From Mytilus galloprovincialis (taxonomy: Eukaryota > Mollusca > Bivalvia > Mytilida > Mytilidae), in NCBI RefSeq assembly GCF_965363235.1, contig NC_134839.1:94569743-94633742 (forward strand): a stretch of DNA of 64,000 nucleotides, written 5' to 3'. This document shows, piece by piece, positions 5,160 through 60,900 of the stretch. The position numbers and the translations under genes were made by a program. Below the pieces are notes generated by a model, which ran no database searches, was not told where the DNA came from, and worked only from the letters and a program-made list of their open reading frames with translations. The first letter of the stretch is position 1. Each line of letters begins with the position of its first letter.

Positions 5160-5464
5160 TTACCAGCTGAAATTTATTTCCCTATCGTCTTTCTGGGCCA
5201 TTCTAACTTCCTCAGCCTCGACCTCTTTTTCAATTCTTAATAATGCGGCAATCAGAGTGTTAATTTGACTGCAATATGGACGCCTTCCTCTCCATTTCCA
5301 GAATACTGCATGTAGTAAATCATCAATCTTAGGTAGTTCCTTAGCAAGTGCTACTACGTCTGTTGGGGACATCTTTAGCTGTATAGCTAATTGCTGGGCT
5401 TCATCCTTGTTAAGTTTATTAGCTAGTTGCATTAATGAACTTATCTTAAGAACGTTAATTGTAC
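5160..5464 (-). CDS. Death-domain terminal exon of gene 1
   Basis: The acceptor is at 5465-5466 and the stop at 5162-5160. The exon supplies two bases of a split Cys codon and 100 further residues. The leucine spacing of six short helices and the core motif AVFWKWRGRRPY followed by I-N-T-L-I-A-A-L-L fit a Death domain, where W-R starts helix 5. The same exon in gene 2 has AVFWKWRGKRPY with the same flanking pattern. Death domains form homotypic filaments with adaptors such as FADD, RAIDD or MyD88; the partner cannot be read from sequence. Confidence 0.8.
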
Positions 5465-8400
5465 CTACAAAACAAAACGCATTTTAACAATTGTCATTTT
5501 TATAAATTAACTGTTTCCAAAGTATGAATTAATAGTAAATAGGATTTTCTTATTCAAGGTAATACTATTTGTTTTTCTATCTTAAAAGTTTATTCTGTAC
5601 ACTTTTTCCCATTTTAATTCACTTATTTTATTTTGTATATTATTTCAAACTTCCACTTTTAAAGACCACTTGTTTTTTTTATTTCAAAGATGCTTATTTT
5701 TTGCCTCACACAACGTGCTTTATGTGTTAAATATTCAATATGACGACCATTTAACGAACTTTAAAGCCTAATTTCTAATTTTCTAATTGTCACTCCTTCT
5801 AGTAAGTTTGAGATTGGGGATACTTGCCAATTATAGTGTATATTATGGTAAATATTATAGAACAACCTTTTCTTTAGACTATTTGTTTTGTGAAAATACA
5901 TATCTATAATTATGTAATGCAACTTACAGTCATTATCAATCAAATGTTGAGTATTCCTCAGTTGATTGTCTTCATCTTTTAATATAAATAAAAACGGTTT
6001 AAATATAAATAACATGCTGTATTAATAATGATTTTGTACGTTTTGTTTTATTTGTTCATTATGATTTTCAAATCTTCTACTACTAACAATACTTGGTTTT
6101 GTTTTCTCGTGTAAGTTACTTCAATGGTTGACCTTGGTTTATAATATAGTCTACTTGACTCTCCCGTCCTACAGTTATATCTTACCCTTACATCTGGTTG
6201 GTTGAAGGGAATAAGTTTTATTTGGTTACCAGTAACAGACAGATTCCGGATTGTAATTTTCTGTTTATTTGATTTATCATTGTCTTTCATGACGTTCATA
6301 GAGTTGCCACAAGGACTAATTATAAATGAAAAAGTAATGTCTAAAGGCAATGCAAATATGAATAAAACATATCACGTAGATTGATCAGACACATCGGAGA
6401 AAACATTCACATTTTTACACAAACGGTAACTCGCTCAAACAAAGCTACAATGTTTATGGCAAAAGATTTGATAATTTTCTTTTATTTCTTCTTATAGCTT
6501 TAACGAATCAGCAGTTGTTGAAATGGTATATAGGTTTTGTCATCGTATTTGCAAAGGATACAATAACTTTTCACCGCGCAAGTACGACTACAATTTTCGA
6601 CAGTAAACTTATAAAATGCTTAATCTAAACAAACCTACTAGTATAACAAATAAATTCATACTCACTAACAGCTGATGGTGATTGAAGATGAACAGAAAAG
6701 GATGTCAGATTCGTGTAGGTCGTGACTGGATCTTGTGGTATTAATGTTTCTTTACTTCTGAAACAATTAACACTGTTCAAAACTATGATTGGTTCCTGTT
6801 CTTTCTCTTCTATCAGCTCAATTTGGATTCGACCAATCGGAGGATTAATCCTGTTTGATATCTCAATTTTGAAAGTCTGGTAATTATCTCTGTTCGGATG
6901 AAACATCAGCCTTTGTGTATCTGATTTCTCTGATCCTATGATATTTATATTCCCACTAAACTTAATCTTTAAAACAACAAGTGAAATTAAATAGTCTGTC
7001 ATATATAAACAAAATCAGTAACATTTTAAGGAACACCAATCAATTATATTTTTCTTGTCACATATCAGTATAATGAAATAAAATGACTGTAATATTTTTT
7101 CTATCTATGAAGAAATAACATAAAAAAAATGTAGTGCAAGCTGAATAACCTGCGTATTACAGTCATTCCTCATATTTTAATTATAAATTTTATTTTCAGC
7201 CGGAGACAATCATGAAAAAACGTTGATGACGTCACGGTCACATGACAAAATTGTAAATATGTGCAAATAGAAAAAAACATCGTCAGCCAATCAGAAGACG
7301 CGTTATATCAAAAATTATATTATTGTAACAGTATAGTCAATTCAATAAAACAGAGTTAGTTTCTTTCAAAATATACTTAAGAAGACACGTGCTATCCACT
7401 CTGCAATTACTAGAAGGAAGAAAGAAATAGTTAAACACTTCTTTATATTACTGGTAAGCACAACATGTTTTGCTGTCTTATCAATTCCTGATTTTATTCT
7501 TTTATTATTTTTATTACGTCAGTGTCAGATTTACTATCCATTATACCTTTTTTGTTGGCGTCTTTGTTAATTAATTATATTACTTTAAATGTTTATTTGA
7601 ATTTTTAGTCAGTTTGGTTTTATGTCTGTGATTATGTTTAGGTTGCACTTTGTAAATACAGTTGTTTCTCATACCACGCCTCCTTTGGGGAGATATATAA
7701 TATTCATAGATATGTTGATCTGTTAACGAACTGGTTCCATTTATGATCTTTGTGTTTCATCTCATAAATATATCACTTGGGAATGAAACCAGTATGGAAA
7801 ACATGGTAGCGCCTAAACTTTTAATTCTTAGGAGGTCCAAAAATTAAGGTAAGGGTAGTATATAATTTTAGTATATGTTCAAACTTTAATAGAAGTTCAT
7901 GGCATATAAATGTTGAAAATATGCCGCATAACACTATATTTTTACCTTTGAATAAAATAGTAGTGCATATAAACTTTCCAGTCTGGGATATTATTTTTCA
8001 CGAAACTTTCATAGTAAAAGTGTCAAGAGTTTTAGTCGCAAAGGGAGTTCCTATGGGAAGGTTTGACCATTTTGATCACCGGATCCCAATTATTGTCATA
8101 TTAACCTATTTTGTCTGATAAGTTTGCTCACTTATTTGATGTCTATATAACGGAACTAGAAACAACTGTCATACAGCTGGGATCTTCAGCTTGCTGTAAA
8201 CCAGGTTTAACAAAAACATTTCGTCAAAAAATACCTGTACCAATTTAAAAATAACACACTTTTTTCTTGTTTCGTTCATTGATAAAGCGTGTTTTTTTCT
8301 CAGTTTTAACGGACTTTTCCATTATACATGTGTCTTCAAATTATGTATTTTTGTTATTCCCTTTTAGCTCACCTAGCCCGAAGGGCCAAGTGAGCTTTTC

Positions 8401-26855: not shown

Positions 26856-28533
26856 CAGGGCCGTAACTAGGGTTTGAATTCAGGGGAGGCAGGGGTTTGG
26901 AGGCTGCCGATTGAGGCCCTCAAGATTAGGGGGTTGGGGCGCAGCCCCCCTCCCTTCCGCCGATTTTTTTCTCTCAGTAAAATGGCTAAAAGTGACCCTT
27001 TCCTTTCGATTTCTTTACTTTAGGAAACATCAGTCTGCTTGAAACTTGAAGCAATTTTTATGCAAAAGCAAGCTGAGGTTGCTGTTCGGAATGAGCGAAG
27101 GCTCCGTCCTGAACGTCGTACTTTAGCCTATAATTATAAACATTAAATACATCGTGATCGCGGATTTTTTGGGTTTTCTCTCGATAAAATCAGTGGCTAA
27201 AAATGACCCGTTTACCTTCGATTTCCATCAGTATTGCTGGATCCTGGAAGCAATTTTTATGCAAACAATAATTATCAGTATTTAAAGATTATTTTGTTAG
27301 AAATCAAACTAGTAATTAACAAAACATCATAGAACGCAAGATATTCTTTTTATCGAGGACCTTGAATTTCAATATTGTTGAAAGCTGAACAGACCTGTAT
27401 ATAACTACAAACAGATAATATTTCTATACTAGTATATATTTAGTATAAAAAGTCCCTGCTACAACGAATGGGAGTGTTAAACTACTAAGGCATTGACCAT
27501 AAAGACATTGTTGTTCTCGTACGATCGGAAGACGTTAAAAATAGTTATCAAAAGTACCAGGATTATAATTTAGTACGCCAGACGCGCGTTTCGTCTACAC
27601 AAGACTAATCAGTGACGCTCATATCAAAATATTTATAAACCCAAACAAGTACAAAGTTGAAGAGCATTGAGGATCCAAAATTCCAAAAAGTTGTGACAAA
27701 TACATCTAAGGTAATCTATGCCTGGGATAAGAAAATCCTTAGTTTTTAGAAAAACTCAAAGTTTTGTAAACAGGAAATTTATAAAAATGACCACATTATT
27801 GATATTCCTGTCAACACCGAAGTGTTGACTACTGGGCTGGTGATACCCTCGGGGACGAAACGTCCACCAGCAGTGGCATCGACCCAGTGGTGTAAATAGT
27901 TATCAAAAGTACCAGGATTATAATTTAGTACGCCAGACGCGCGTTTCGTCTACACAAGACTAATCAGTGACGCTCATATCAAAATATTTATAAACCCAAA
28001 CAAGTACAAAGTTGAAGAGCATTGAGGATCCAAAATTCCAAAAAGTTGTGCCAAATACATCTAAGGTAATCTATGCCTGGGATAAGAAAATCCTTAGTTA
28101 AAAAAATATTCCAACAGCTGATTCAGCCGGTAACGAATTTCCGATATCATAAAAGATTCACAATACAAAGGGAAATTACTTTCTCTGCTTAATTGACGGC
28201 TCCTAAATAAATGGGAACAGTTAAGTTTTAATCAAAATTGTCGAAAGCAAAGTTTCATATGTGTTCTCATACGAATAACGAATAACATGACGGACGGCCA
28301 CACGAAAAAAAAATGATAATGCTGAAACGTTTCACTATCGATCAAAAGTCCGGAAAATGATAACACTGTTAACACTATGGTAAAACTGTAAACTTGTGTT
28401 GTTTATAATATAAATTGAAGTTCTTCGTGAACATATTGTCAATACATCATTTTATTACTTCAAAAAACATTTTGGTGTAGAAAATTCAGGGGAGGCAACT
28501 GCCTCCCCTGCCTCATAGGTAGTTACGGCTCTG
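26856..28533. mobile_element. 1.7-kb non-autonomous element, CAG(G/A)GCCGTAACTA ends, 5-bp TSD
   Basis: The left end is CAGGGCCGTAACTA and the inverted right end CAGAGCCGTAACTA. A second inverted segment AATTCAGGGGAGGCA lies just inside both ends. ATAAA flanks at 26851-26855 and 28534-28538. The interior carries a two-unit mussel repeat (27541-28100) and no ORF. The superfamily is not assigned; the size and TSD match the element at 9362-10656. Confidence 0.75.
27541..28100 (-). repeat. Two-unit composite mussel repeat, 356-bp period
   Basis: 27541-27750 and 27897-28100 are almost identical (one clear change, GTGAC/GTGCC) and carry GCCAGACGCGCGTTTCGTC. The units are spaced by exactly 356 bp, with a linker containing CTGGTGATACCCTCGGGGAC. 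They sit inside the 26856-28533 element. Confidence 0.85.
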
Positions 28534-36083: not shown

Positions 36084-39000
36084 ATGGGTTCAGTTTTTGT
36101 TTTGGTTATGTTTATGACATGCAGCGATATAGTTTCGGGTTTTAGAAACCTTGCACACATGCATGATAATTATTTTTATCCAGGGCGGACTACAACATTA
36201 AAGTGTGGCAATGGCTTTTGTCCAGAAGTAACAACGACATACAAATTTTACCATGATGTAAAACCAGAGGGGACACAAACTTATAAGTTGGATACTGATG
36301 TAATATCGGGACCGGTTGAAGATAGGCCTACTGAGAAAAAATAAAAGTGAGTATCCTATGTTTATAATAAATTGAAATGATCTTGCTTTACAGGTATAAT
36401 TTCAATCTTTAAGTTTTTACTTTTTCTGTTAACCGATTATTTTACTAGGTGTGTTGCTAAGATTGGAATATCTCCTGGCATAGTTGTTGGTGGTATTTTT
36501 CCTTGATGGGTAGGTATAACCTCGCCCTGGTGTTGCATAAGGACCAATGGTTGAAAATAAATTTGGTAGGAATGTTTTGACGTAAACGTAGCAACGCGCC
36601 TGTTTACGTATCAACCTAATCCAAGGAAATACTGAGGGAAAATGCAAGTGCTGAAATATCATATTTACTTGGAGATATATACTCATATGCAGCCAGGTTT
36701 TACTTGGATTTTGCAAAATAAAATGAAAAGTTGAAAGCTGGGAAGCTGAAATAATCTATTATGTAGTAAAGTTTTGTTCTCAAAGGACCAAATATATTTT
36801 TATTGATGTATATATTATCCTATGCAGCCAGGTTCTTGTGGACTTTGAATGACATACACGGTATCTTTTTCACGATAACGCTTGATCTTCGGGGGTTTCG
36901 CCCCCTTTATCTGAGGTCCTCTGTCGTCGAGCAATTATGGGCGTACACTAAAAATGACCTTGCTGTGCCATTGTTTACATATTAAAAGCTAATATGATGG
37001 TGTGGACCATGTTTGATGTAAATATAAATGCATCTTGTTTGCATTACTGATCTATTTTTCCATATACGTTTTTAATAAACTGACAAGTAAAACGATTTTT
37101 TCTCATAAAGTATTGTAATGCTGGGGACTTTTTTGTTTAAAATATGAAAACAACTTGATGGCATTACTGACCTATTTTTCAATTTTTTAATCAAGGTCCT
37201 TTGGATATAAGTCCGTTTATAGATTGTTTTACTATTCCTTAAAAACTGTTATGCTGTATGCTATTATTCCTAATATAAATACAGTTTGTTTGCATTATTG
37301 GTCTTTTTTTAATCATTCATATTTTTCGGCAACTTTTCCGTGTATCTATTCGTTTCATAATTCAATTATAATTCATTTTCTACTGTTTGCACTGCTGTAT
37401 TTTTCGCAAATAGATTGTTTCATAAACTAATTACTGTAAGCCTGCAGAATAGTTTTGCTCTGCTTTCGTAATGAATTTTAGTGTAAAATTTTGGCAAAGA
37501 TTAATATTTAATTGATAGTTTTTTTTCTATAAAATTTTATAGCATAAAAAGTTGTTACATGTCATTTCAAATATAGCTAAGATCCATTCTGTTATCTACC
37601 TAAATATTTCTTATTTGTTTGGAGTTTTTCTTTTTCTACTGAATTACTGAGAATATGTGGGTCGTAAAAAAATACACTTTTAGTATATAACGATGTATGT
37701 ATATGATGGAAATAAAAATAAAAAAAATAATCCTATCCGTTATTATCTCAATCTAAATTGTGTTCATTCAAACTATAACCAGAATAGTGCAAAAGAACAA
37801 AAATTTAATAAGCATTTTTTGTTGAAAAGTGTCGAAATCCGGGGTGACGATGAGCACAAGTTAGGAGGAGTCAAAGTAATCCTTAGTACAAACATAAGTC
37901 CCGTGATTTGGATTTCTGTATTATTTCATTGTCTAAATCGATCCATTAATGGTGACTCGGGACTAGAAATATGATAGCCACACGTCTCCTTCCGACCATC
38001 AATTAAACCATGCCGAAGTGTGGCGTCCGTTTGACTGTGCAGTATGTACAAGTACGCAGCCACATGTATGACATATTTGTCAATTGCCATGAGGAAATCG
38101 ACTATCAGTTCAACCGTCGTTTTAAATTTCACATCTAGATGTGAGGTTTAAACATTTTCACATAATACAGTTAGTGCATATGATTGCTGCGATAAAATAA
38201 ATTAAAGAGGGGCGAAAGATACCAGAGGGACATTCAAACTCACAGATATAAAAATAAACGGACAACGCCATGGGTAAAACATAAAAAGACAAACAGACAA
38301 GTAACAGTTTACAAGACACAACATAGATTTTGACAGGTTGTAGTTTCACATAGTGGATGATGCATGGTAGGGGACGTTACACGTTCTTCCTACTTTATTT
38401 CTCTAATGTACAGATGTGTGAATAGAATGGAGACAATTTTTTTAAACCAAAAATATTCTGTTTATTTTGCTTCTTAAATTCTTTGTTGCTATTGGTACAT
38501 TTATTCCAACTTGAATGTATTTGAGGACATGTTTATCAAAAATATTCAATTGATTCATAAATGATATAAAAGTTTGTTTTGACACGTTGTCTACTTTCTT
38601 ACTTTCATTTAAAACCAAATAATTGTAGATCAGCAGTATTCTAAAACTATTTATTTATTTACCTCTACCAACGTGCTAATGTTCCAAAAGAAAACTTTCA
38701 ATGTTTTTTTGGTAAGGAGTATTTCTTTGATTTAGTAAATTTAAAATTTCTTTATATACAAATATATACGTATAACTATGATGGTTTTTTCCAGAGCAAA
38801 CCACAACTAACAAGTATTCACGTGGTTTACATCTTACGAGAACCAAAATATACATGTCTGGTTATGGAGTGTATCCAGAGCTTATCACAACATCACTATT
38901 TGACGATAGTGTGTTACAAGAATGGACCACAAAATACAATTATGATCATAGTGTATACCCCAAGGGACACATAACCTCCAAATATGGATATAGTGTTTAT

Positions 39001-39148
39001 CCAGAGGGGACCACAAGATACAACATTAACAATAGTGTATTCCCTAATGCAAACAGATCTTCAAAGAATCGTTATGGTGTTTATCCAGAGTGGACCACAG
39101 AATATTTGTATGATAATCGTGTTACAACAGATCTTGGGGAGAAAATAA
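36084..39148 (+). CDS. Secreted tyrosine-rich 14-residue-repeat protein (two exons, interrupted)
   Basis: Exon 1 is 36084-36346 and exon 2 is 38795-39148; both end in a phase-1 GTGAGTAT donor, and exon 2 has a TTTTTTCCAG acceptor. Residues 1-19 look like a signal peptide (hydrophobic V-F-V-L-V-M-F core). Residues 30-85 are four 14-residue units (GFCPEVTTTYKFYH, DVKPEGTQTYKLDT and others). Exon 2 has six more in perfect 42-nt register at 38866-39117 (GVYPELITTSLFDD, SVYPEGTTRYNINN, GVYPEWTTEYLYDN and others). The consensus is roughly [GSD]-V-Y-P-E-x-T-T-x-Y-x-x-x-[DNH]. In exon 1 a TAA at 36342-36344 follows an A6 run and precedes the donor by two bases, so as written only 86 residues are made. 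With one A fewer the exon would stay open in the phase exon 2 needs. Function is unknown; a byssal, shell-matrix or other extracellular structural role is a guess from composition. No third exon is visible before the inverted-arm element begins at about 39166. Confidence 0.6.
37040..37310 (+). repeat. Three degenerate ~120-130-bp tandem units
   Basis: GCATTACTGATCTATTTTTC (37042), GCATTACTGACCTATTTTTC (37162) and GCATTATTGGTC (37293) recur with an AT-rich spacer. They are in the intron of the secreted repeat gene. Confidence 0.45.
38203..38330 (-). repeat. 3' tail fragment of the Penelope-like element
   Basis: GGGGCGAAAGATACCAGAGG..GGACAACGCCATGGGT, same segment and orientation as 63150-63235. 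Lies in the intron of the secreted repeat gene. Confidence 0.6.
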
Positions 39149-39165
39149 GTGAGTATTTTCAGAAA

Positions 39166-39940
39166 TAGTATCTCACAAGTCCAGCGGATATCAGAATAAT
39201 TGATCACTTTATGGTAAAAGCATGAAACTTAGCATAGTGAAAGATTAAGGGGTATAGACAAAATTCAGATATGGAGCCACGAAAACAAAATCCAATATGG
39301 CTGCCAAATTCAAGATGGCCGACATTAGTATGACATAATTCACTTGATGAAGTTTTCCAATTTTAATGAGTTCAGAAGATGTCACAAACTTAAGGAAATA
39401 CAATTAAGATATGTCAATTATTTTTTTTGAAACCTTACAATACAGAAATCATCAAAATGGCGTCCAAATTCAAAATGGCGCGTCAAAATGTCTAAGTTTG
39501 ACAGTATTCGTATATGTACACCATCATTGTGTGATAGAAAGTTACCAAATCCGTGAAAGTGATTATTTGATATCGACAAAGGCCTACAATGTATCATTAA
39601 TGCCTGGGTGCATATATAATATTTTCAAAATGGCGGCAATATTCAAAATGGCGCCGTTTAACAAGTCAAAATTTGACGTTTGTTTTTAAATATGGTATAA
39701 AAATTATTAAAAAATAATGGATGATTTATTTCAATACAAGCACGTAAATACAAACATATTATTATTTAATGTAACAGGTGACATTAACTATGAAATAAAA
39801 ATGGCCAATATAGTTCAAAATGGCGTCTTTGACGAGTTCTCATTTTTCACAGTTACAGGTTATGTCCTTAGAAAATTTCACAATTTTCCTGAAATGAAAA
39901 AAAAAAAAAAACATATGCAGTATTGAATCAGTGCAAAGAG
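39166..39940 (+). repeat. Left inverted arm with ~170-bp 'ATGGCGCC' repeats
   Basis: At least four degenerate units of about 165-175 bp, each with a paired core like AAAATGGCGNCCAAATTCAA (near 39297, 39460, 39630, 39800). The outer end (39175-39330) matches the reverse complement of 43905-44030: AGTCCAGC, AATTGATC, CTTTATGGTAAAAGC, GATATGGAGCCA and AAATCCA follow in the same order. The outer boundary is not sharp. Confidence 0.65.
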
Positions 39941-40051
39941 TATTTCTTTTTTAGAAATGAGATAAGGAATTAAAAAAAGAACTCACAAGTAACTATTTAA
40001 CATAACAACAGATTAAAACTACAATTAAAATATGATTCAAATGCAGGAAAA

Positions 40052-42560
40052 TCAAAAGAAAGCACAGTCACAATCAGTTTCTCTTTCACAGTCCGGTGAG
40101 CAGTTGCATAATGCTGCTTTCAAGAATTTACATGCTCTTCGACATCCTTTCTTACATCCACAGTGGATGAGCTCTTGGCATGATATTGAAGCTTCAGCAA
40201 GCACAGACCAGAATGGTACCCAAGTACCATCAAGTTTTTGCCAACCAAATAAATCTGGTGATGGCATACTTGAATTTGCAACTAAACAATTGCCCCAAAT
40301 AACACTACCTTGGTAAGCTGCACGTTTCGTATATTCAATGAAGAAGTGCATCTCGTGTTGGAGGAATATTGTCAATTGTTCTTGTCTTCTGCGTTAATAA
40401 CTGTTTTCTTAACTCATTCACCATATTAGCTGTACTAGACCGATCATACAAAAGCACAACATATCGTTCTATTACTTTTAACACTTTTAAAATTTCCACT
40501 TTATTTGGATTTTCAATAACCTGCAGAAATGCTTCTGACAACTCCTCATATACAAGACCATGTGTCCCAAGCTAATTTCGTACCTTTCCCAGAAAAAGCT
40601 GAGACTGTGTCACAACCGATAAATAAATGGAACAGTGGAAAGACTTTCAATTTCAATGGTCCTAGAGCAAGGCACAATCCATGAATTGAAATATATAGGA
40701 AGTTCTTTCCAGTGCAAAAACCTATCCACAGCTGTTCAGCCATTTGAATTACCCTTTTAATGCAGCTGGGAATGAGGACATATCAATTGAAAGTTCTCCT
40801 TCAACTAATGGGATATCTGGTTCGCTGAATCTTAGTACAGCTGGTGGAAGATTTGAATAACTCTCTGGTAAAAGAGACATTCTCTTTGACTGGCATTTCA
40901 ACATAGGCTCGGATTGGTCACATGTTTGAACAACGCCTTGAACATCCTCTGAAATATGTTGGAATAAAGATATACCTGTACCATGGAATGAATCTTTTAA
41001 CGAGATACTGCTTGAATTGTGATCAATGTTGTCTACAGCAGTTGAAGTAAATACATTTTGTAGTGGATTGGTAGGGCAACCAATACATTCTTGGACATAA
41101 CGACGACAAGCATCATTGGCCATGGAAGTAGAAACTTCTAACACTCGGTCGTAGGAGACAGACAGTCCAAGTTTGAAGAAAGTATCTACTAGATCACGTT
41201 TGCTAGTCTTACATGGATCATGATTCCCAAATAAGCACAAACTGGAGGTTCATGATCTTTCATGTGACGGTTGGTTAGTTTCTTTGTACAACTATACATC
41301 AGAAGATGTGCTATTGTTAATGTCGACTGAGAATATGAACGATCCTGAATGTTGGGTCAAAACTGAATCATGCTGACCAAAGTAAACAATGACTTGGGTA
41401 CAGAAGCTTCCTGATATCGCTTTGGGAAGGTTCCTTTAAATTCTGAATTTGATGCAAAAATATCTTTACTCATTATCAAAGTCTTCTAAGCAGACTCTCT
41501 TCAATGCAGGACCAATGTCATCTTTGAAAGTAAGAATGTTTTCAGGACCTTGTTAGTAAGCATCTAAGTTAGGGAAATTACAATTCTGTGTTTTAGTCGT
41601 GTACTATTAACTCGAGATGAAACATCTGTACCTAGACATGTTATTCTTTCTGTATAAAGTTTACATAGATCTGACAACTTGTAAACACTTATGGTCTCAT
41701 CGCATGACCTTGTTTCATTTATATAAGAGACTAGTTCTGAAAATGCAATACCATGGATTTGACTTTCCTTCTTAGATTCGACATTATCATTTTTCATTTC
41801 AATTCGAGATGCACGCAGACGCGGATTTAGAGGGGGGCCAGGGGGCCCGGCCCCCCCTTTTTGGGAAAAAATTTGGTTGCTTATATAGGGAATCACTGAA
41901 GCGTGACTGGAGCGGGCCCCCTCTTAGGTCAGTCAGTGGGCCCCCACTTATGAAAATTTCTGGATCCGCCACTGGCACGATTATATAAGGAAACAAAACA
42001 TTTAGAGTCGTACTTTGCTTCCTGTGCAATTAGATCACCAGCACTTAACTTTGCAAGTAACAACGTGTCATTTAATTTTACTGTACATTCTCTCACACGT
42101 GTATCTTGTCCAAACGTTGAGAACCCATGAAGGGCTTCTTGGTCATTTTCATTACAGAAAAAAACACACAGACGGGTTACTGGTGGACTGAACGGGAAAA
42201 CTATGTCTAGTTTTCTTTTTAGATGTGGTTGCTTTATTATCTATTCTCTTATGTGAGGTTGGTTTTTCTGCTCTATCCAACTTTGTCCTGTTCAGTTTTA
42301 AGTTGCAAGATTTGTGCCAACATGCCTTTTGGTCAATGAAAGACTGTGCTATTCCAGATCCCTCATCTAAGTTTTCAATGCACACATTAATGCCTTCAGG
42401 CATCAATCGTGATTCATGAAATGTCTTAATATTGTCAGCTAAAGATTGATAACCAGCACCAACATTCAGACGTTTATAATCAAATGGGCATATACGTTTT
42501 TCATCTATTATTTCTTGGCAGAGGATGCAATTTGCCCAATCAATATTATTTAATTTAGTC
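40052..42560 (-). pseudogene. Decayed gene of a multicopy CXC-motif family
   Basis: Fragments in minus order share one protein order: a zinc-binding start with C-I-L-C and C-P-F-D (42560-42410), a helical stretch (42406-42152), R-I-T-C-L-G-T-D-V (about 41650), then L-G-L-S-V-S-Y-D-R-V-L and V-D-N-I-D-H-N (41240-40749), L-F-I-G-C-D-T-V-S-A-F-S-G-K-G (about 40610), and a cysteine-rich end H-C-G-C-K-K-G-C-R-R-A-C-K (about 40110) like a tesmin/TSO1 CXC half. I recognise this as a multicopy ORF family in corals, molluscs and lancelets with no accepted name. The frame is broken by several shifts (for example at the T run near 42170) and by a 159-bp MITE at 41816-41974. It lies between inverted arms (39166-39940 and 42846-44035), so it may be the cargo or recombinase of a transposon. 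Confidence 0.65.
41816..41974. mobile_element. 159-bp GC-rich MITE inserted in the CXC-family gene
   Basis: The ends CAGACGCGGATTTAGA and (inverted) CAGTGGCGGATCCAGA form imperfect TIRs. GCACG is duplicated on both sides (41811-41815, 41975-41979). Removing the element plus one GCACG joins the host reading frame exactly (…N-R-A-S-R-I…), which dates the insertion after the CXC gene was in place. The inside is rich in G and C runs. Confidence 0.85.
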
Positions 42561-42845
42561 GGTTTGTCATATTTTACACTTGATACCCTGAACGTCTTTT
42601 CAGTAGAAATATGATCGTAAACTAGTTTATATATTCCTTGTGGATAACTTCTGTATGCCAGACGCGTGTTTCGTCTACAAATGACGTATCAGTGACGCTT
42701 GAATCGAAAAAGTTTAAAAAAGACAAACAAAAAGTATGTAATTCAATATTTGATGACCTGAAATCCTGAAAGTTTTGCAAAGCACAAATATTTGTTGATT
42801 ATTAATAGCTTTCTAGATATACACGATATAGTTTCTGATAATAAG

Positions 42846-44035
42846 ACTTTTGACGGCCATTTCGAATTTGTCGGCCATTAAGGAATTATTTTTGATTGTT
42901 CCATTTTCAGAAAAAATTAATTAGCATCATAACTACCTATATGCAAAGTTTTGTGCTTTTATTATCAAATGATCATTTATACCATTTTTTTGGGGGACTC
43001 TGCCTCATGACTGTTGGCGGCCATTTTGAATTTGTCGGCCATTATGGAATTATTTTGATTGTTCCATATTCATTAAAGATTAATAAGCACCATAACTAGC
43101 AATATGCAAAGTGTTGTGCTTTTATTTTCAAATGATAAATTATACCATATTTTTAGACTCTGCCTCATGACTGTCATCTTCGCTAGCCAAGGGTTACGAT
43201 CCATTCCCGCTCTCTTCACCCTTGGCGGAATGAGATAATATTTCGGAGACACAAGGTAAGGATTTTTATTGGTTGCAGTAGAAACTCGCTGCATCCAATC
43301 AAAAAGCGCCTATAACATCATCACGTGTAAATGTAGAAAGTGTTTGTAAACAATTGCCACGTGTTTATTGTGCAATAAGTCTTTACATCACTAAACATAC
43401 AACTATATTTAGTGACAACTTGAATGTTTTTAATCAACTAATAGAAGTTCCTGTGTATGTTTCATGCACAAATGCATGAATGTTGACGTCTATTTTCGTT
43501 TCCGGTTTTACCAAGTGGGTAGAATCTAGACGCTACTGTGTTTTTACCTCCGAATTGAAGAGATCAAGTGCTACCATTGGTCAAGAATAATGTATTCGGA
43601 ATGGGCGTGACTTTAATCTTCCGATAGATGGCGCAACATTGATATCACAAATGTTGGCTCAATCTGCCAAGGGTGAAGAGAGCGGGAGTGGATCGTAACC
43701 CTTGGCTAGCGAAGATGCATGACTGTTGGCGGCCATTTTGAAATTGGCGGCCATTATGGATTTTTTTTTTAATGTTCCATATTCAGAAAAGATTAATAAT
43801 CATCATAACTAATAATATGCAAAGTTTTGTGCTTTTATTTTCAAATGTTAAATTATACTATATTTTTGGACTCTGCTTCATGACTGTTGGCGGCCATTGT
43901 GGATTTATTTTTTGATGGCTCCATATCCAAAAATGTTTATAAACATCATAACTAACACTGTGCAAAGTTTCACGCTTTTACCATAAAGGGATCAATTGTC
44001 CCAAAATATTGGACTTAGCTGCTGGACTAGAGATT
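42846..44035 (-). repeat. Right inverted arm with ~160-bp tandem repeats
   Basis: Units start with CTGTTGGCGGCCATTTTG (about 42850, 43011, 43721, 43880) and run through GTGCTTTTATTTTCAAATG and GACTCTGCCTCATGA. Spacing is about 155-166 bp once the inserted 543-bp element is removed. The outer end is related in inverted orientation to the left arm at 39175-39330. Confidence 0.7.
43175..43717. mobile_element. 543-bp MITE with 52-bp TIRs and 9-bp TSD (Mutator-like)
   Basis: The left end starts CATCTTCGCTAGCCAAGGG (43175-43226) and is the inverse of the right end (43666-43717), with one mismatch over 52 bp. The flanks carry CATGACTGT at 43166-43174 and 43718-43726; removing the element and one copy restores the tandem repeat CTCATGACTGTTGGCGGCC. 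A 9-bp TSD with long TIRs fits Mutator-like elements. There is no coding capacity. Confidence 0.9.
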
Positions 44036-44594
44036 GTTAAAAGTAAAATTTATAATTTGGAAATATTTTACATGGGATTTTTTTTTTCTTAAAACATAGA
44101 ATTGAAAAAGAAAGAATAATAACGAAATTTTCAGTTCGAACTTAGGTATTAAAGCATATCAGGGCTGTATCTGTAATTGTGACTAATTTATTGTATGTTA
44201 TGACATAGATGTAGGAAGATATGAAATGAGAACATGTACATTTGATGTATTACATTTCTAAATTATGATTAATTACAAGCGAATATTGGTGCATTGGCTG
44301 TTAGTTTTTGACTAGAGAATGATCAGGAAAATGTTGATATTTGTTAAAATTAATGAGAATATGGAGTAATATTTATTTGAAAATAAAATTATTCATGACA
44401 TTTATGAAAACTAGGTTTTGAAAAAAGCTACCACTTTTATTTGCTGTTATATTGTTAAAAATTGGCTAAAATCTCCATTGTTGTTTCTGATTTCTGATTT
44501 AACTGTAAAGATATTAAGAAACCACTACAAACTAAAAGCTTCAAAATTGCAAGTAAAACCCAACACTCCTATAACATCCCCTTTATAATAATGG

Positions 44595-47487: not shown

Positions 47488-48450
47488 ATGCCTGGGGACA
47501 GTAAAGGAGCAAAAACTATACAAACAATGTTAGCAGCTAAAAAGCCTGGGAGCAATGATTCTTCTAAAGACTCTGTAAAGGAAAAACCATCCAAGCAGAA
47601 CAAACGATCCCATTCAGATGTTGCAAATGACAGTGTGGAAGGTATTGATTTGACTGGTATTCAAAATGATTTAAGTGAAATAAAACAATCTCTTCAGGGC
47701 ACAGTTACAAAGACTGACCTTACTAATGCTATGGTTAATTTGGTACAACAAAAGGACTTAAAAACTTTAGTTAGTAACATTGTCTAGAAATTATTAGATC
47801 ATTTTGAAGAGAAGATCACCAGTAAGTTTGAGTGTAAAATAAGGGAGGCAACTGGAAAACTTGATGACAAGTTAGATACATTGATGATTGAGAATGAGGA
47901 TCTGAGGGAAAGAATCAGGGCAAAAGATAGAGTTATTGAAAACTTAGTGGAAAAGGTTGGTGACAATAATAACAGATCTATTGATGCTTTGAAGTTAGCC
48001 AATTATAATGAACAATACAGTCGAAAACATAATATAAGAATGCTAAACTTTCCTGAAAAAAGGGGTGAGAATTTGAGAAAAGCATTTATTGAAACTTTAA
48101 AGAGTGACTGTAAAGTAGACATTGAGCCCAGTGATGTACTAGCCATCCACAGAATACCTGGGAAAGATGGTTATCAGAAGCCTGTCATAGTTAAGGTAAA
48201 GAATACTGAAACTAAAATACGGATAATGCGACAAAAAAGATCCCTGAAAAATGAAGTGAAATTGCATGATGACATATCACAACGCAATCTTGGACTAATG
48301 GCAAGACTTAAAAACACTGAAAAATTTGAAAATGTATGGTTTTATAACTGTAATGTGTATGCCAAAACTGAAACTAGTAGCAGAATAAGATTTGATCTAT
48401 TTGACAATGTAGAAGAAAAAATGAAAAAGAAATTGAAAGATGGAAATTAA
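47488..48450 (+). pseudogene. LINE ORF1 protein, one in-frame stop
   Basis: 321 codons in one frame, with an internal TAG at 47785-47787 (codon 100); a CAG-to-TAG change would explain it. The N-terminal ~80 residues are basic and low in complexity. Residues around 100-175 form a predicted coiled coil (I-E-N-E-D-L-R-E-R-I heptads). From about residue 175 there is the RRM-like/C-terminal region of L1-type ORF1 proteins (Q-Y-S-R-K-H-N-I-R, D-V-L-A-I-H-R-I). It would bind element RNA as a nucleic-acid chaperone. An ATG at 47881 could restart translation past the stop. Confidence 0.75.
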
Positions 48451-48934
48451 TTAGTTTTCATATTAGTCTGTTACACTTGTTAATATTTTTTGGAAAATGT
48501 ACAGTTTTTATCAGTATAAATAGATAGATATAAATGTGAAAGATAAATACTGAAGTGTGTCATGTCAACTCCAAATTACAAAATCCTGGATACATATATA
48601 GAAAATAGTATAAGAGATTTTTTTACTATTTTTTTTATTAATATAAATTATACTGTCACTATAGAGTATAGGGGAAATAACTCTAACATTTATTATGAAA
48701 TTAATATAATCTTATCTCCCCTTAAAACATCTATTCCTTTGCTAGATTTATTCATAACTATATAATGCCATACTGTAAATTAGTTTATACATTCAATGTT
48801 GTATAAAGAAAATAATATGCGACATCTTATGTTTGTATGTGTGTATGTTTGTGTATGTCTTATGTGTTACAATTGTATATTTGTACTTATGAACTTGCTT
48901 ATATGTTTTATAAATCATCACTTCAGATATAATC

Positions 48935-49693
48935 ATGGATAATAATGTAACGATATTATCAATGAATGTGAGGGGTCTTTTTTCAAACTCCAAAAAGAGG
49001 GCAGATGTTTTTGATTGGGCTAGGAGTAAAAATACTTCCATAGTGTGTTTTCAGGAAACTCATAGCAATAAAGACATTGAAAAATACTGGGAGGATGAAT
49101 GGGGAAATAAGTGCTTTTTCAGTCATAAAGACAGTAAAAGTGCAGGTGTCTCTGTTATGTTTAAAAAGGGTCTGGATTTTGTTGTGCATAATTCTATTAT
49201 TGATGATAATGGTCGTTACATTATTTTAGATATAACAATTTTTTCACAAAGATTAAGTTTTGCATGTTTGTATGGTTATAATACAGATGAACCTTCATTC
49301 TTTGACACAATAATGCAGAATATTTTAATCTTTAAAAACACCAGTGTTTTACTATGTGGTGACTGGAATGTTGTATTAGATAAATTTATGGATACATATA
49401 ATATCAAACATAATAGAAACCCTAACTCCCGTAAAAAAATTAATGAAATCATTGATGTTTTTGAACTACTTGATCCTTGGCGTACATGCTATCCAGAAGA
49501 TAGGAAATATACCTGGCGTCAGTCCTCACCAATAAAACAAAGTCGCCTTGATTATTTTTTAATTTCAGAAGACCTTTTTTCACTTATGAAGAATACCATT
49601 ATCATTCCTGGTTATAGAACAGACCATTCGGCAATTTTTTTTCACCTTCTCAGCTTGTTTAGAGAAACGGGGCAAAAGTTATTGGAAATTTAA
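48935..49693 (+). CDS. LINE ORF2, APE-type endonuclease part
   Basis: 252 residues with the exonuclease-endonuclease-phosphatase fold signature: S-M-N-V-R-G-L at the start, Q-E-T-H (catalytic Glu), L-C-G-D-W-N-V (Asp/Asn), S-R-L-D-Y-F and the closing T-D-H-S-A-I-F with the catalytic His. The frame ends at TAA 49691-49693 because the reading frame shifts relative to the reverse transcriptase. The most likely site is the T8 run at 49635-49642, just after the T-D-H-S motif. Confidence 0.8.
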   Translation: MDNNVTILSMNVRGLFSNSKKRADVFDWARSKNTSIVCFQETHSNKDIEKYWEDEWGNKCFFSHKDSKSAGVSVMFKKGLDFVVHNSIIDDNGRYIILDITIFSQRLSFACLYGYNTDEPSFFDTIMQNILIFKNTSVLLCGDWNVVLDKFMDTYNIKHNRNPNSRKKINEIIDVFELLDPWRTCYPEDRKYTWRQSSPIKQSRLDYFLISEDLFSLMKNTIIIPGYRTDHSAIFFHLLSLFRETGQKLLEI

Positions 49694-52600
49694 CTCTCAG
49701 TTACTTAGAGATGCAGATTATATAAAAATGGTTAAATCATGTATTAATGATACTATTTTGGAATACCATCTGTCAGGTGATATGGAAAATCTTCTTTCTG
49801 TTGAGTTGTCATGTAATGATCAAACATTTTTTGAAATATTAAAAATGAAGATTAGATCCTTGTCAATAAATTACAGCATTAATAAATCCAGAGAGGAAAA
49901 AAATGTCACTCTCAAACTTGAAAATGATATTTTAAATTTTGAAAGTATTATGAATCATTCTCCAAATGATGAGGTTCAAAAATCTTTATTTGAAAAAAAA
50001 CTTGAACTAGAAAATTGTAGACAAAAGAAAGTTGAAGGCTTGCTGCTTAGATCCCGAGCTAACTGGCATGAGAATGGTGAAAAGTGTACAAATTATTTTT
50101 GTAAATTAGAAAAGAAAAATTTTATTAAGAAAACCATAACAGAACTTATTGATGATAAAGGTCAGCATATTTCAGAGCAATCAAAAATTCTGATGGAACA
50201 ACAAAATTTTTATAAAAATTTGTACTCAAGCAAAAAATTAGATTGCAATGATACATCATTTTTTAATCATAACATTAAGCTTACAGAAGAACAAAGTGAT
50301 CTTTGTGAAGGAAATTTAACTTTTAAAGAATGTGCTGAATCTTTAAAATTTATGACAAATGGTAAAAGTCCTGGTTCTGATGGGTATTCTGTAGATTTTT
50401 ATAAATTTTTTTGGAAAGATATTGGCCCTTTTGTCTTTCGATCTCTTCACTTTGGATATGCGGGGGGTAAATTTTCTGATTTTCAGTATCAAAGTATAAT
50501 AACTTGCATTCCTAAAGAGGGAAAAGACAGACAGTATATTAGTAACTGGCGTCCTATTGGTCTTTTGAATACTGATATGAAAATAGCTTCTGCTGTTATA
50601 GCTAATAGACTTAAACCCGTTTTACCATTTATCATAAGTGACACACAAAAAGGTTTCATTAAAGACAGATTTATGGGTGAGAACACACGCCTTTTATATG
50701 ATTTGATGCACTATCTTGAGGAAAATAATAAGACAGGTCTTTTATTACTTGTTGATTTTGAAAAGGCATTTGATTCCTTGGAATGGTTATTTTTAAAAAA
50801 TACTTTGAAAAGCTTTAATTTTGGGCCTTCTTTATGTAGATGGTTTGAAACTTTATACTCAGGGGCATCAAGTTGTGTTATAAATAATGGACACATGTCT
50901 AAGTTTTTTCATTTAGAAAGAGGTTGCAGACAAGGAGATCCTCTTTCTCCCTATTTATTTATAATTGGGGTTGAATTATTATCTTTGAAATTAAAAGGTA
51001 ATCCTGACATAAGGGGAATTACTATCAATGATGATGAATCACTTTTAAGCATGTACGCAGATGACACATTCCTTATGTTAGATGGAAGGGAAATATCGTT
51101 GAGGGAAACACTTTCATGTTTTGAATCTTTTTATAAAATTTCAGGTTTGAAAATAAATGCTTCAAAGACAAAAGCACTATGGGTTGGAAGTAAAAAATAT
51201 TCTGATCTTATTTTATGTCCAGACTTAAAACTTCATTGGTCACATTCAAATTTTAAACTTTTGGGGATTGAATTTTCTTTAGATTTAAGCTGTATCACAG
51301 AAATTAATTTTGCTAAGAAAATTAAAGAGGTCTCTGCAATTCTGAAGAGCTGGCAACATCGAAAACTCACATTATTAGGAAAAATTACAGTAATTAAATC
51401 ACTTGCTCTTTCAAAGTTGGTCCATTTATTGACTGCATTACCAAACCTATCACACTCCAGGTTAACAGAGCTCACTTCATTATTTTATGATTTCATATGG
51501 AATGGAAAACCAGACAGAATTAAGCGAAACACACTTGTTGGTAATATTTCACAAGGTGGACTTAATATGGTACATCTTCATTCATTTAATATCTATTTGA
51601 AAATTAGTTGGATAAAAAGACTGCTGGCAAACCCTAGCGGTGGCTGGCAGCAGTTGTTACTGGCAGACCTTATGCAGAACGGGGGTGAAAGGGTTTTAAA
51701 TCTTCAGAAAGAAAAGCTGATTGAGATTGCTAAAAGATGTAAAAATTCTTTCTGGAAGGATGTTTTACTATGCTTTTCCGCTGCAAAACCTATTACTGAG
51801 ATTTCTGTCAGTGACATTTTATCCTTAGATATTTTGAACTTTTCTTCTATGGATGATTTCCCATATTACATTCAATGGGAAAAGAGGGGTGTGCAGTCAG
51901 TAAGTGACCTTATTAATCGTGAAAATATGATTTTTTATAAATTTGAGCAATTTCAAGAAAAAGTACAAACCAACAATTTTATTAAATATTATGGTTTGAT
52001 ATCAAAAATCCCTAACGCTATGAAAAAATGCCTTAAAGATAACTGTCTAAATCAAGATTTAGAGAAGTCTAACACTGGTGATACTTTCTTAAAAAAAATC
52101 AGGTGTAATGTGAAAGCCAAATTTGTATATAAAAACTTAGTAGATGAAGTTATTCAACTACCAACAATTAAATTTTTGAAATGGGCAGAGCTGTTAGTTA
52201 TTGATACTACAGAATGGTCAGAGTATTTCATGATAACAAAAAAGTCTTGTAGAGATGCTTATTTAAGAACCTTTCAATATAAATTTTTGCATAGAATTAT
52301 AGCAACGAATACCTTTTTGTACAAAATCAAATTAAAAGATACCAAGTTATGTACTTTTTGTAAACTTGGAGAAGAAACCATTGAACACCTGTTTTTTGAA
52401 TGCCCAATAACTTTTCAATTGTGGCAGTCTTTTTTCAATATTGTGAAACTTTTTTTTGTAAATTTTGATCTCAACAAAGAGAATGTGTTTCTTGGTTGCA
52501 AACATGAAAGTTTATTATTGAATCTGCTAATCATAATTACAAAGAATTATATATACAAATGTAAATTAAATGAAACAAAACCAAATATGATCGAGTTAAA

Positions 52601-52709
52601 AAATAAAATAAAGAAATACCAATTTCTTGAAAATCATATTGCAAAGAAAAATGATAAAGTCCAAGTTTGTGAAAAATTTTGGTCTCCTTTACATGTAATA
52701 TTTAACTAA
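49644..52709 (+). CDS. LINE ORF2, reverse transcriptase part
   Basis: The +0 frame is open from upstream of 49644 to TAA at 52707-52709. The first in-frame ATG is 49728, but in the intact element this is a continuation of the endonuclease, not a separate protein. It contains the linker G-K-S-Y-W-K-F-N, the fingers N-W-R-P-I-G-L-L-N-T-D, L-L-V-D-F-E-K-A-F-D-S, G-C-R-Q-G-D-P-L-S-P-Y, and the catalytic M-Y-A-D-D at about 51051-51065. Near the C-terminus there is a C-x2-C...H-x4-C zinc knuckle (CTFCKLGEETIEHLFFEC). All key RT residues are present and no stop interrupts them. Confidence 0.85.
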   Translation, partial: TFSACLEKRGKSYWKFNSQLLRDADYIKMVKSCINDTILEYHLSGDMENLLSVELSCNDQTFFEILKMKIRSLSINYSINKSREEKNVTLKLENDILNFESIMNHSPNDEVQKSLFEKKLELENCRQKKVEGLLLRSRANWHENGEKCTNYFCKLEKKNFIKKTITELIDDKGQHISEQSKILMEQQNFYKNLYSSKKLDCNDTSFFNHNIKLTEEQSDLCEGNLTFKECAESLKFMTNGKSPGSDGYSVDFYKFFWKDIGPFVFRSLHFGYAGGKFSDFQYQSIITCIPKEGKDRQYISNWRPIGLLNTDMKIASAVIANRLKPVLPFIISDTQKGFIKDRFMGENTRLLYDLMHYLEENNKTGLLLLVDFEKAFDSLEWLFLKNTLKSFNFGPSLCRWFETLYSGASSCVINNGHMSKFFHLERGCRQGDPLSPYLFIIGVELLSLKLKGNPDIRGITINDDESLLSMYADDTFLMLDGREISLRETLSCFESFYKISGLKINASKTKALWVGSKKYSDLILCPDLKLHWSHSNFKLLGIEFSLDLSCITEINFAKKIKEVSAILKSWQHRKLTLLGKITVIKSLALSKLVHLLTALPNLSHSRLTELTSLFYDFIWNGKPDRIKRNTLVGNISQGGLNMVHLHSFNIYLKISWIKRLLANPSGGWQQLLLADLMQNGGERVLNLQKEKLIEIAKRCKNSFWKDVLLCFSAAKPITEISVSDILSLDILNFSSMDDFPYYIQWEKRGVQSVSDLINRENMIFYKFEQFQEKVQTNNFIKYYGLISKIPNAMKKCLKDNCLNQDLEKSNTGDTFLKKIRCNVKAKFVYKNLVDEVIQLPTIKFLKWAELLVIDTTEWSEYFMITKKSCRDAYLRTFQYKFLHRIIATNTFLYKIKLKDTKLCTFCKLGEETIEHLFFECPITFQLWQSFFNIVKLFFVNFDLNKENVFLGCKHESLLLNLLIIITKNYIYKCKLNETKPNMIELKNKIKKYQFLENHIAKKNDKVQVCEKFWSPLHVIFN

Positions 52710-54822: not shown

Positions 54823-57631
54823 TGTACGTCTTTTTAGTAGTAAATCGGACATCCACGCAATTTGATTGGTGATTAGTTGAACATATTTTAAATTATTTGC
54901 AGTCGGGTTTTTTGTTTTGCCATTTGTTTTTTCGGTTTTCTTTCGACTTTATATTCTGTCGTTTTATTTCTGTTGTTCAGTTTCAAAATAAACAACATGT
55001 TTTGAACTGACAGACTAGGATTAAACCCCTGAATTTAGTAAGTAAATGAATTTCTACATGTTGAACAGGGTTTCTCATCCTTTCGGAGCACCTGATATTA
55101 CCTCCATACTTTGTTGTTGGGTTTCTTGTTGTCTTCAGTTTTTTATGTTGTGGTTTGTAGAAAGTCGTTTGTCTTTTAGTCGTTTTCGATTTTTTAACAT
55201 GGATTTGTCACCCTTTTATACAAACAATTGAAATAATTCTATTAATACCTTATTTCTAAATGTACACAAATAAAAAAACAACACTGACAAACACTACCGA
55301 GTTTTATTATTTCGAAATTAGAAAATAGAACACTAGTCATTAAAACAGTCTAACTCAAACAATGTATAACATCATGTTCTGTAATAACATATGAATTCTG
55401 CACAGACATGTTGGAAGCCAATTTTCAGTACGTGAGTATTCATAATAAATAATCAAATTAAACGGTACCAATTTTACTGATCCAGATGCACATTTCCTAA
55501 CAATGACAATGAGATGTTCACGTAGGAGACAACTTTCTTCAAATGATTCCTTAATCTTCAATGACAGACACAAAACACCATTAAACTTTATCCGTATTTA
55601 TGATAGTTCCAAATTCTTGATCGAATTTATTTACCTGGTAGGGGTACTTCCGGAGATTGAAAGCCCACAATCAGAGGTTATAGGCCCGATAGTAGTATTC
55701 AAATGAAATGGTACCAATACTTATTCACGAGATGACAATGTTATTGATAGGACAGATAACGTATGTTTACATGTGGTATACTTTTCAGGAAATGATATTA
55801 AACATATATAGAGCCATAAACAAGGAAATCATTTTGTTTTAAAAAGACAGTTATGTACAAGATTAGAAAATTCGGCCACATCGTGAATATACATTTAAAT
55901 TTAAAACAAAACATGGGTCCTTCAAAAATGATACAATACTATGTTAATAATGACAGACATAAATTACAGTTCAAAATAACACAATAGCGTTCTATTAATG
56001 TTTCTGTGACATGATTGTTTTCGTTCCCCCTTTCTTGAATAACACCGTTGTTATTAATTAATTACTGTACAAGTTCTTTTTAAGAAATGGTTAAAATTTA
56101 TTACCTCAAGCACGTTTCATAAACTTGTATATTTCATGAGTCGAAATTTACATACGGCAAAACAGATTAGTCATCTATTTTATCTTTTTAAGTTGCCCAA
56201 ATGACAATAAAGCAATATGTTTTACCCTTCTGTATTTATATATATTTAATTCAAATTATGGATTAGATGATGTTATAACTTGAAGTTGATACTTTCGAGA
56301 ACTAGATGATGTATTTAATACAAAAATCATTACACAATGTTAAGAACAATCCTGCCGTGAAAAAAAGAGTCCATGAGAAAGCTTTCCAATTTGTATTGAT
56401 GAATGATATAAAATCTAATTTTAGTACAACTTCCATATAAAAAAATGTGGTATGAGTCCAAATGAGGCACTTCTCAATCCAAGTCACAATTATAGAACAA
56501 AACCATAGTCGGGAGCTGATTGTAGATGCATTGTAAAATGCTGACAACTGAAAAACAAATATTAAGTATAAAAAAAACCACGAGACAAGAAATAACTCTC
56601 TGGTGGTAAACAAATTCTTTTCGGATGTAGCGTTAATTGAAACATTGAACATATTTTTATGTATATATACATCTAAACAATTGTGTAAAACAGTACTAAT
56701 AATAAAAAAGGAAACAATAAAGAATTAACAGATATCTGTCATCAGTATGAGTATGATGATGTAAACTGAATCCTACCAATCTGTTCCGATTTAACTGCAA
56801 CAATCTTTACATGTATACAATTGAATAACTAACAACGCATGTATAATAACTTTAAAAATGACGTTATTTAAGTATTTACATAAGAGACTGTAGATATATG
56901 ATTCTAAACCGAAAAGTAATATGCGATATGAACTGATACAATTCTAAAATTACACAAGTGGCAACAGTTCTGTTCTTAAAAGAGAGACTGCACAGAAAAC
57001 ATTGTATAGTGTTGTCAGCCTTCCCGATCTGGTAATCATGTATCCTATAAGTATGTGTTTTTTAATTGTTAATTATATTACTGTTAACTAAATCAGAAGA
57101 AGAGTTTGAAAGACATCAGTACTAATATCTAAATCATGTGACATTAGACAACGACCTACAAAGCGTAAAAAAAATCTATACTTGTATTCCCCTTGTATAG
57201 ATAATTTAACAAACGATTAAACAAGTATCTCTCTGTTAAACCAACGAGTACCCTTTTCATCAGTGAGTTGACATCCTTAATTTTATTCTTTCAGTTATAT
57301 AGCACAATGTAGGAAGATCGGTTACATTTTATGTTAACTTGATAAATTTTACTTTACAGTAATTGGAAACCGACTAAGATAGAACGTTTGATTGATTTTC
57401 ATTCGGGTGAAATGTTAACTAGCTGCGTTTTGGATGGGCATATAACCAATAAAAATATATTCCGAGTGTTCCTCAATTGGTTTTTCAATCAATATATATA
57501 TATAAATGTATAAAATCAGCAGCCTCTTCCCAACTAAAATCAATACTAGAATATTATAAAATTATGAACGAAAATAGAATATCAAAATAAATAAATGGTC
57601 TCTTATGGGTTATCCATGTACTACTAAATTA
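54823..57631. other. Intergenic 3' of gene 2
   Basis: Contains a retroelement tail fragment (55045-55220). A 116-codon minus-strand frame at 56652-56302 is hydrophobic but AT-driven, with no homologue that I recognise. Confidence 0.4.
55045..55220 (+). repeat. 3' fragment of the Penelope-like element, opposite orientation
   Basis: TGTTGAACAGGGTTTCTCATCC..CGGAGCACCTGATATTACC is a diverged reverse complement of 63310-63360 (GGTGATCTCAGGTGCTCCGG, CTGCTCAACATGTGG), continuing toward the TTTATGTTGTG segment. Confidence 0.5.
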
Positions 57632-57933
57632 TCAGTCGAAACAAATTAGCCTTTCTTCTTTGTGAGCTGCTCTGACCTCTGCAGCCTCCAATGCTTTTCC
57701 ACTTCTTTCTAATGCATTACCCAGAGCCAAAGCTTGGCTAGCATATGGACGCTTTCCCCTCCATTTCCAGAATACTGCTTCACAGAAGTCATCAATTTTA
57801 GGGAAATCTCTAGCAAGTGCTGCTACTTCAGCTGGGGTCAATTTTAGAAATGTTGCTACTTCCTGGGCTTCATTCATGTTAAGTCTTTTCGTCAGTTCCT
57901 TTAAAGAATTCATCTTAAGAACTTTTATTATAC
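57632..57933 (-). CDS. Death-domain terminal exon of gene 2
   Basis: The acceptor is at 57935-57934 and the stop at 57634-57632. It encodes 99 residues after the split Cys codon, with helices L-K-E-L-T-K-R-L-N-M, A-Q-E-V-A-T-F-L, P-A-E-V-A-A-L-A, the core AVFWKWRGKRPY, and L-G-N-A-L-E-R-S. The reading frame is intact and the surface residues differ from gene 1 far more than the hydrophobic core, as expected if both copies are under selection. Confidence 0.8.
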
Positions 57934-60900
57934 CTACAATCAAATACGTCAAATTTCAGAAAAGATATATATAATTTCAGTGAATATGTGTGTCTATATA
58001 AACAAAAGGCTCAGATGCTGATTAGCATAAAACAACATGTTGTGTATAAACGTAGATAAATTCTACCACTGCATCGGATGTTTAACAATATTTATCTACT
58101 CAAAGCGGTTAAATTTTTCAAATTTAAAACGTCAAGATTGGTAGAATATCGTATCACTCAAGTTTCGATTTTTGAACCAGTTTATCTGATGCCTAAAAAC
58201 GAAATGTAAATAAAGTCTCTTATTATTTTCAAATGATCTGCAAAAAGACGTGATCTTTCTATGTGTCGTCGTCAAAGATGGTTATCTTTTTTCATGTCGC
58301 CACAAACATAAAACCCGTAGAAAGCAAGAAAATATTAAAATCTTAACCTATTAACGATTGATATCAAACAAACACTCGTTGATAATGAAGAAAAAAGTCA
58401 TTTTGTCAGAAAAATTATAAATCTACTGAGAATTAGGGAACAGTTATATGGTACAGTTTATTCACGAAACAATCACTTAAGTTCATTGTAACATTATGGA
58501 TGAGAAGATAGTTTAGAAAAACAATTAAAATTTTATCAAAGAAAGGTCGTGCATTAGAAGTTTTTCGTCATATATTTTCCATCATTTGTTTTTAACATAC
58601 AGTCACTTTTTTTAATAATGAACAGATACATGACAGTGGGTATCCATTTTCGTTTTGAAATTTTTCACTATAAATTATGTCTCATATTTGACAACTTAAC
58701 AAATTTCTAACTTGTAAATAATGAACATTACCATTTAAACTTTCTAGTTTCTGTAGAGTCATGAGCTATCGTCAGTTTGCAAGATTTATTTTATTTTGAA
58801 TAATGTTATAGAACTTGTACTTTGGAAACCAAACTGTATTACCCATATTCATAAATGTTGTAAGCGTTTTTATAAAAATCATCATTTAACTTTTTTCACA
58901 TTTTTATTGTCTAGTAAGAAATTCAAATTTTAAAGTATTAGGTGGGTGATGAGGAGTTACTACCCATAGTTGAAAATAATAATGACAATTAACCTGTCTT
59001 CATATGATTATTTTATGAAGAAAAAAACAAGAGAGCTATATATATTGCTACTTACAGTCATTATCGGTCAAAGGCTGAACTACCTTAACTTCAATGTCTG
59101 CAACTGTAAAGACAAAAAAAAATTAAAACCGGATATTAATTTATTAGAAATATATATGTTGAAATGATGTTATTCGGTTTTTTTCTTTGTTGATTTTTCT
59201 TCTTCATTTTTCTTTACTTACAATGTATATGCTGTTGTTATCTAATATAAATTATAACTAGAACTGAATAAAGTTTTGAAATAAAGTAACCTGTACATTT
59301 CTCATCCTTCAATAAAACCGATGCTCAATGAAGATGTCATCAGTTAAGCTATTCGGGATGTATAAATAATCCGCATCGGAATGAGGACGCTTCATACTAA
59401 GTCACATATTTAAAGATTGTGTTCAGCTACATTTCTGTTGCAACAGCTTCATATATGTAGATTTATAGTTGTAACCAGAGGGAATTGATGTTTATTATCA
59501 GACTTTTCCAAAACTGAAAGAATGACTATTAAACGCGCAGTAGTCTTCACATGATTTGGCACCATATGATATTATACAAAATCTAAATATAGAAACATAG
59601 TACATACTTTTACCCTCACCGGGAGCTACCTTCTCTGGAAGAAGGTGCATGGGTAAGGATGTTAGATTCGTGTAAGTCGTGATTGGATCTCTTGTTATTA
59701 CTGTTTCTTTACTTTTGAAACAATTTTCACTTTCTGAAACTATGATTGGTTCCTGTTCTGTCTCTACTATTAGTTCAATTTCGATTCGACCAGTCGGAGG
59801 ATTACGTTTGTCTAATAACTCAGTGCTGAAAATATGAAAGTTATCTCTGTTCGGATGAAACATAAGCCTTTGTGTATCAGATTGCTCTGTTCCTGTTATT
59901 TTTATATTCCCGCCGAACTTTACCTGTAAAAGTATAAGAAAGTTATATTAAGCAAATGGTCTCCAAATTTTTCTTTATAATGAAAATCAATATTAAACAG
60001 GTAAATTACTTACTCGAAACCACTGATTGATCTGTACTGTATGACACACCCCCTCAACTTTTTGAATGCTAAATTGCTGTTTCTCCCAGTCCTTCTTTCT
60101 CTTTGCTGCCTTTCTCTGTAAGGCACATTCTATAACTATTGCGTATTCATCACTAGAAAGCGTTTTTGCCAATGCAAAGAACTCCACTTGTCGTTCGTTG
60201 TTCAAAGCTTTTTGTACACTCTTACATACACCGGCCATATCTGTCTCAACTTTTTTCTTTGAAACACCTGTAAATCTGCAAACAAAGAATAGAACTAATT
60301 CAAACCATAGAATTTGATCTTTATAAACAAAGTCAGAAAATCATTAATTTCCTCGTCTAGGTTGCACTTTGTACATACAGTGCTATAAATCAAGCTAATA
60401 CCGAACAATTGACCAAAAAGCTTATAATAGCATCGTGGACTAATATATCGCCATCAGTGGTATCGACCTTGTGCTATACAAAAAGAAAATAACACTTTAT
60501 AAATGTTATGAGTTTGAAGCGATTTCTGTATCCCCTATCACAAGGAACTTTCAAAACTATATATTCAAAGGTTGTGTAATTAAAAAACCCCAAAAAGGAG
60601 CTAAAATTTGAGGAGAAAAAACGAACTACAAAAAACAGTCAAACTTATATATGGTCATTTGCTTGGAGTAGTTGGACAATTTAGTTTCTAAATAATTTCC
60701 TTGTTTTAAACGGACAAATCAAAGGAGGTATGGAAATTAAGAAACAATATGGTTAACATATAAACATACATGGAGAAATGCGAGATTCTGAAGGAAGCGC
60801 GATTTTTCTCTTTTTTGGCTTCAATGATTTCCCAATCTTTTATTTTCTCGGGATATTCTTTAGACGACGTTAAAATAACAATGTCATTATCTTCATTTGC

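Follow-up and report, generated by a model that had tools for sequence, protein, structure and literature searches.

What is the broken gene that lies between two inverted repeat arrays in a 64,000-nucleotide stretch of Mytilus galloprovincialis DNA (contig NC_134839.1; here called the window)? A preliminary description had placed an element at 39166-44035 and proposed that it was an autonomous DNA transposon of an undescribed kind, with a single minus-strand gene between its arms. Our analysis indicates that it is very likely a decayed mussel copy, internally deleted and probably no longer mobile, of a cut-and-paste DNA transposon of the AcademX type.

To define the element ends, we compared the single copy in the window with itself. 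Matching terminal octamers, AGTCCAGC on the left and GCTGGACT on the right, set the element at 39178-44028 (4,851 bp), so the boundaries first proposed were approximately right but lay slightly outside these octamers. The left arm (39178-39830, plus strand) consists of the terminal AGTCCAGC, then a terminal inverted repeat, then units that each carry paired TTCAAAATGGC-like sites. The right arm (42845-44028, minus strand) is inverted relative to the left, contains four units sharing the left-arm core and ends in GCTGGACT at 44021-44028. Over 42 nt, 39198-39239 is 90% complementary to 43956-43997. Aligning the left 205 bp to the right 185 bp, after reverse complementation of the latter, gave 113 columns with a score of 94, while the maximum among 925 random stretches of the same size from the window was 27. 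This alignment begins 20 bp inward of the element end on the left and 31 bp inward on the right. With the right-arm insertion described below removed, the full arms scored 95 in inverted orientation and 26 when both were read on one strand, against at most 35 in 274 controls; after the outermost unit of each arm was also removed, the scores were 51 and 26 (271 controls, again at or below 35). The inverted orientation of the arms and the matching of their outer parts, both claimed in the preliminary description, are thus borne out.

The repeat units with a shared core that had been reported in both arms were also recovered, at a spacing of about 143-173 bp and with TTCAAAATGGC-like cores. Spacing is 160, 173 and 171 bp in the left arm and 163, 713 and 143 bp in the right, where the 713-bp interval contains an insertion. 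Allowing up to 3 mismatches, 41 TTCAAAATGGC-like 14-mers occur in the window, 14 of them within the element and 27 elsewhere on both strands. Inside the element their orientation follows the arms: all eight left-arm sites (39288/39306, 39448/39466, 39621/39639 and 39792/39811) are on the plus strand, and all six right-arm sites (43906, 43763, 43745, 43051, 43033 and 42869) are on the minus strand. They form six pairs at 18-19 bp, four on the left and two on the right, plus two single sites on the right. Between the arms, the inner units are similar mainly at a core of about 30 bp.

Two insertions interrupt the element, both overlooked in the preliminary description. The right arm holds a 544-bp miniature inverted-repeat transposable element (MITE) at 43174-43717, whose 69-nt inverted ends are 91% complementary. 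It is flanked on both sides by the 8-bp CATGACTG and is a later arrival that duplicated this octamer. A G+C-rich insert of 159 bp, with GCACG at each side, lies within the gene at 41816-41974.

The minus-strand gene between the arms is present as described, but it is broken. It runs from about 42610 to 40088 and retains N-terminal C2-HC clusters, the region of the first catalytic Asp motif (VDNIDHN), the end of an XPG-like nuclease (IGCDTVSAFSGKG) and a C-terminal CXC knot. Frameshifts, stops, the 159-bp insert and a large internal deletion at about 40735 interrupt it, and its pieces lie in three minus-strand frames; the deletion, too, had escaped the preliminary description. By tblastn, these pieces share 63.9%-94.7% identity with the Mytilus proteins P0001 and P0002, the lowest values falling where matches cross frameshifts, and among the matches listed the closest proteins to the gene are from Mytilus. 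At the deletion junction (40731-40737), about 730 codons are gone relative to P0046 (1,364 aa), since aligned residues stop at 414 and restart at 1144. Lost with this stretch are the second D and the E of the catalytic triad, along with every nuclease acid but the last. Because these residues are lost, the window copy, judged from its sequence, is non-autonomous and unable to encode a working enzyme, contrary to the autonomy first proposed, and it is probably dead as a transposon. The deleted form is present in at least one further record, because the C-terminal end of the M. edulis protein P0002 is the junction peptide of the window copy, FKWLNSCG.

The capacities of the intact family are better seen in its relatives. 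There were 120 among the matches listed, of which 95 are at least 1,400 aa long (median 1,520 aa). We aligned 43 full-length or nearly full-length relatives, including coral, annelid and crab proteins, and number residues as in P0241. In the predicted architecture, two N-terminal C2-HC clusters are followed by a DDE domain with an RNase H-like fold and then by a nuclease of the FEN1/XPG type, and a CXC knot lies at the C terminus. In all 43 relatives D496, D499, D669, D887, H890 and E891 are invariant, with D496/D669/E891 as the DDE triad, and so are the putative nuclease-site acids D1127, D1170, E1261, E1262, D1264, D1288, D1290 and D1348. The N-terminal clusters (C27, C30, H96, C99 and C147, C150, H199, C202) show no substitution where aligned (35 to 43 of 43), while for the CXC cysteines conservation is 34-40 of the 43, three relatives having gaps there. 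In our Pfam scans the protein was recognised only in part, by DUF6589 (best 4e-6). The comparison of folds that the preliminary description had proposed gave Hermes and RAG1 as top matches to the DDE domain, with moderate Z, and indicated that the second domain is FEN/XPG-nuclease-like.

Named hosts among the matches listed are Mytilus, Saccostrea, Priapulus, Capitella, Oculina, Actinostola, Nucella, Patella, Homarus, Petrolisthes, Myxine, Merluccius and Amphimedon. The corals and molluscs of the preliminary description are therefore represented, but lancelets were not seen among these matches. P0284, from a record labelled as a Sedimenticola bin, probably reflects contamination by host DNA. 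Contigs bearing the 95 long relatives are mostly short (85 of 95 at or below 8.5 kb, median 5.85 kb), which is suggestive only, as this figure has no control. Two mussel subfamilies, one of P0001-P0006, P0009 and P0058 and the other of P0010, P0088, P0090 and P0098, share about 41-58% identity over their best stretches.

That the element is a DNA transposon, as had been proposed, is well supported, because its inverted arms enclose a gene of a family with DDE-transposase-like and FEN/XPG-nuclease-like domains, and because M. edulis has several closely similar records of this family, located on separate contigs. The novelty claimed for it did not hold up, in that the element probably belongs to a kind already described. 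The AcademX lineage of Academ DNA transposons is said to go back to Kapitonov and Jurka in 2010 and Kojima in 2020, and its nuclease is of XPG type. AcademX fits the mussel family, which encodes a nuclease but gave no sign of a helicase: in three sets of relatives (7, 37 and 37), including many partial sequences, Pfam returned no helicase family, although a helicase encoded by a separate gene of the element would escape this search. The likeness includes, at the family level, a DDE transposase with a nuclease and without a helicase, and in the window element the presence of terminal inverted repeats. Element size and abundance in bivalves are also similar: PMC10294476 gives 100 curated Academ elements from bivalves, averaging 5,565 bp, and describes a bivalve-specific amplification of Academ. 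Adding back the deleted sequence (about 2.2 kb) and subtracting the inserts (about 0.7 kb) from 4,851 bp, we estimate the intact element at about 6.3 kb.

Other known systems are further removed. AcademH would share a superfamily with the mussel element if the Academ assignment is right, but in PMC10045372 it is described with a helicase, and target-site duplications there are 9-10 bp for AcademH and 3-4 bp for AcademX, apparently tied to the encoded helicase and nuclease, respectively. The hAT transposases such as Hermes and the RAG1 recombinases differ in Pfam profile, there being no match to the hAT transposase or dimerisation domain at the cut-offs used and none to RAG1 among the scanned relatives; the mussel family also adds a fused nuclease and a CXC knot. 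FEN1, XPG and EXO1 5'-nucleases share about 14-16% identity with the family in aligned rows, and the mussel-family nuclease differs in sitting within the transposase polypeptide.

Some observations weigh against the AcademX assignment. We saw no 3-4-bp target-site duplication when ends within 39166-39199 and 44005-44044 were scanned with at least 8 of 12 terminal bases matching, in this one old copy with self-defined ends, which is moreover internally deleted. The assignment itself, which is probable, is drawn from published descriptions of Academ elements. Together with the partial Pfam coverage, these points favor a separate, undescribed superfamily of transposons outside Academ that pairs a DDE transposase with a FEN-type nuclease. 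We consider this unlikely, since a transposase paired with a nuclease is what PMC10045372 describes for AcademX, and the bivalve abundance and similar length of Academ elements fit as well. Quite unlikely is a fuller version, in which a superfamily apart from Academ would combine an RNase H-fold transposase and a flap endonuclease in one protein and would have its ends read as arrays of paired sites about one nucleosome repeat apart, instead of as one terminal site.

Other readings separate the gene from its flanks. The arms could be an unrelated repeat, such as a fold-back element or a MITE array, that hosts an inserted gene or gene-bearing element; the examination of a single copy and the restriction of inner-unit similarity mainly to the core would be consistent with this. 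It is nevertheless very unlikely, as inverted arms with matching outer parts flank the gene just as those of one element would, and the product of the gene family is transposase-like. Alternatively, the gene could belong to a host family, such as one of domesticated DNA-binding proteins with a CXC domain, beside incidental repeats, and some relatives indeed carry public names only as Tesmin/TSO1-like CXC domain proteins. A host gene is highly improbable, however, given that the window gene is broken, that closely similar copies sit on separate contigs in M. edulis and that the aligned relatives retain every DDE and nuclease acid.

For an intact AcademX-type element of this family, the most plausible mode of movement is DDE cut-and-paste with protein binding at the subterminal site arrays. 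The C2-HC clusters (putative zinc fingers), the CXC knot or both may recognise the arrays of TTCAAAATGGC sites. The DDE domain would cut the element ends and join them, and the fused 5'-nuclease may trim flaps or strand ends during excision or integration. We know of no test of the role of a fused 5'-nuclease in DNA transposition, though no search was directed at this question. The window copy could presumably be mobilised only with protein supplied by a full-length relative.

Several further features were observed in the window. An open reading frame of repeat units of about 42 bp (38854-39168, plus strand) stops 9 bp short of the element and has no Pfam match. An L1-like long interspersed nuclear element occupies 47881-52709 (plus strand), with an endonuclease (Exo_endo_phos, 2.3e-12), a reverse transcriptase (RVT_1, 1.5e-35) and zf-RVT; its upstream open reading frame (47881-48450) has no Pfam match. 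Diverged duplicates lie about 53 kb apart (5138-5437 and 57607-57906, 71% alike; 6684-6981 and 59641-59938, 81%), and 27539-27744 and 27894-28099 form a 206-bp direct repeat that is 100% identical.

With the window element read as an AcademX-type copy, many animal proteins that lack a name, or are in some cases filed as Tesmin/TSO1-like CXC proteins, are accounted for as transposases with a fused FEN-type nuclease. Residue-level targets are now named for both putative active sites, and the site arrays offer a concrete hypothesis for how the ends of these transposons may be recognised.
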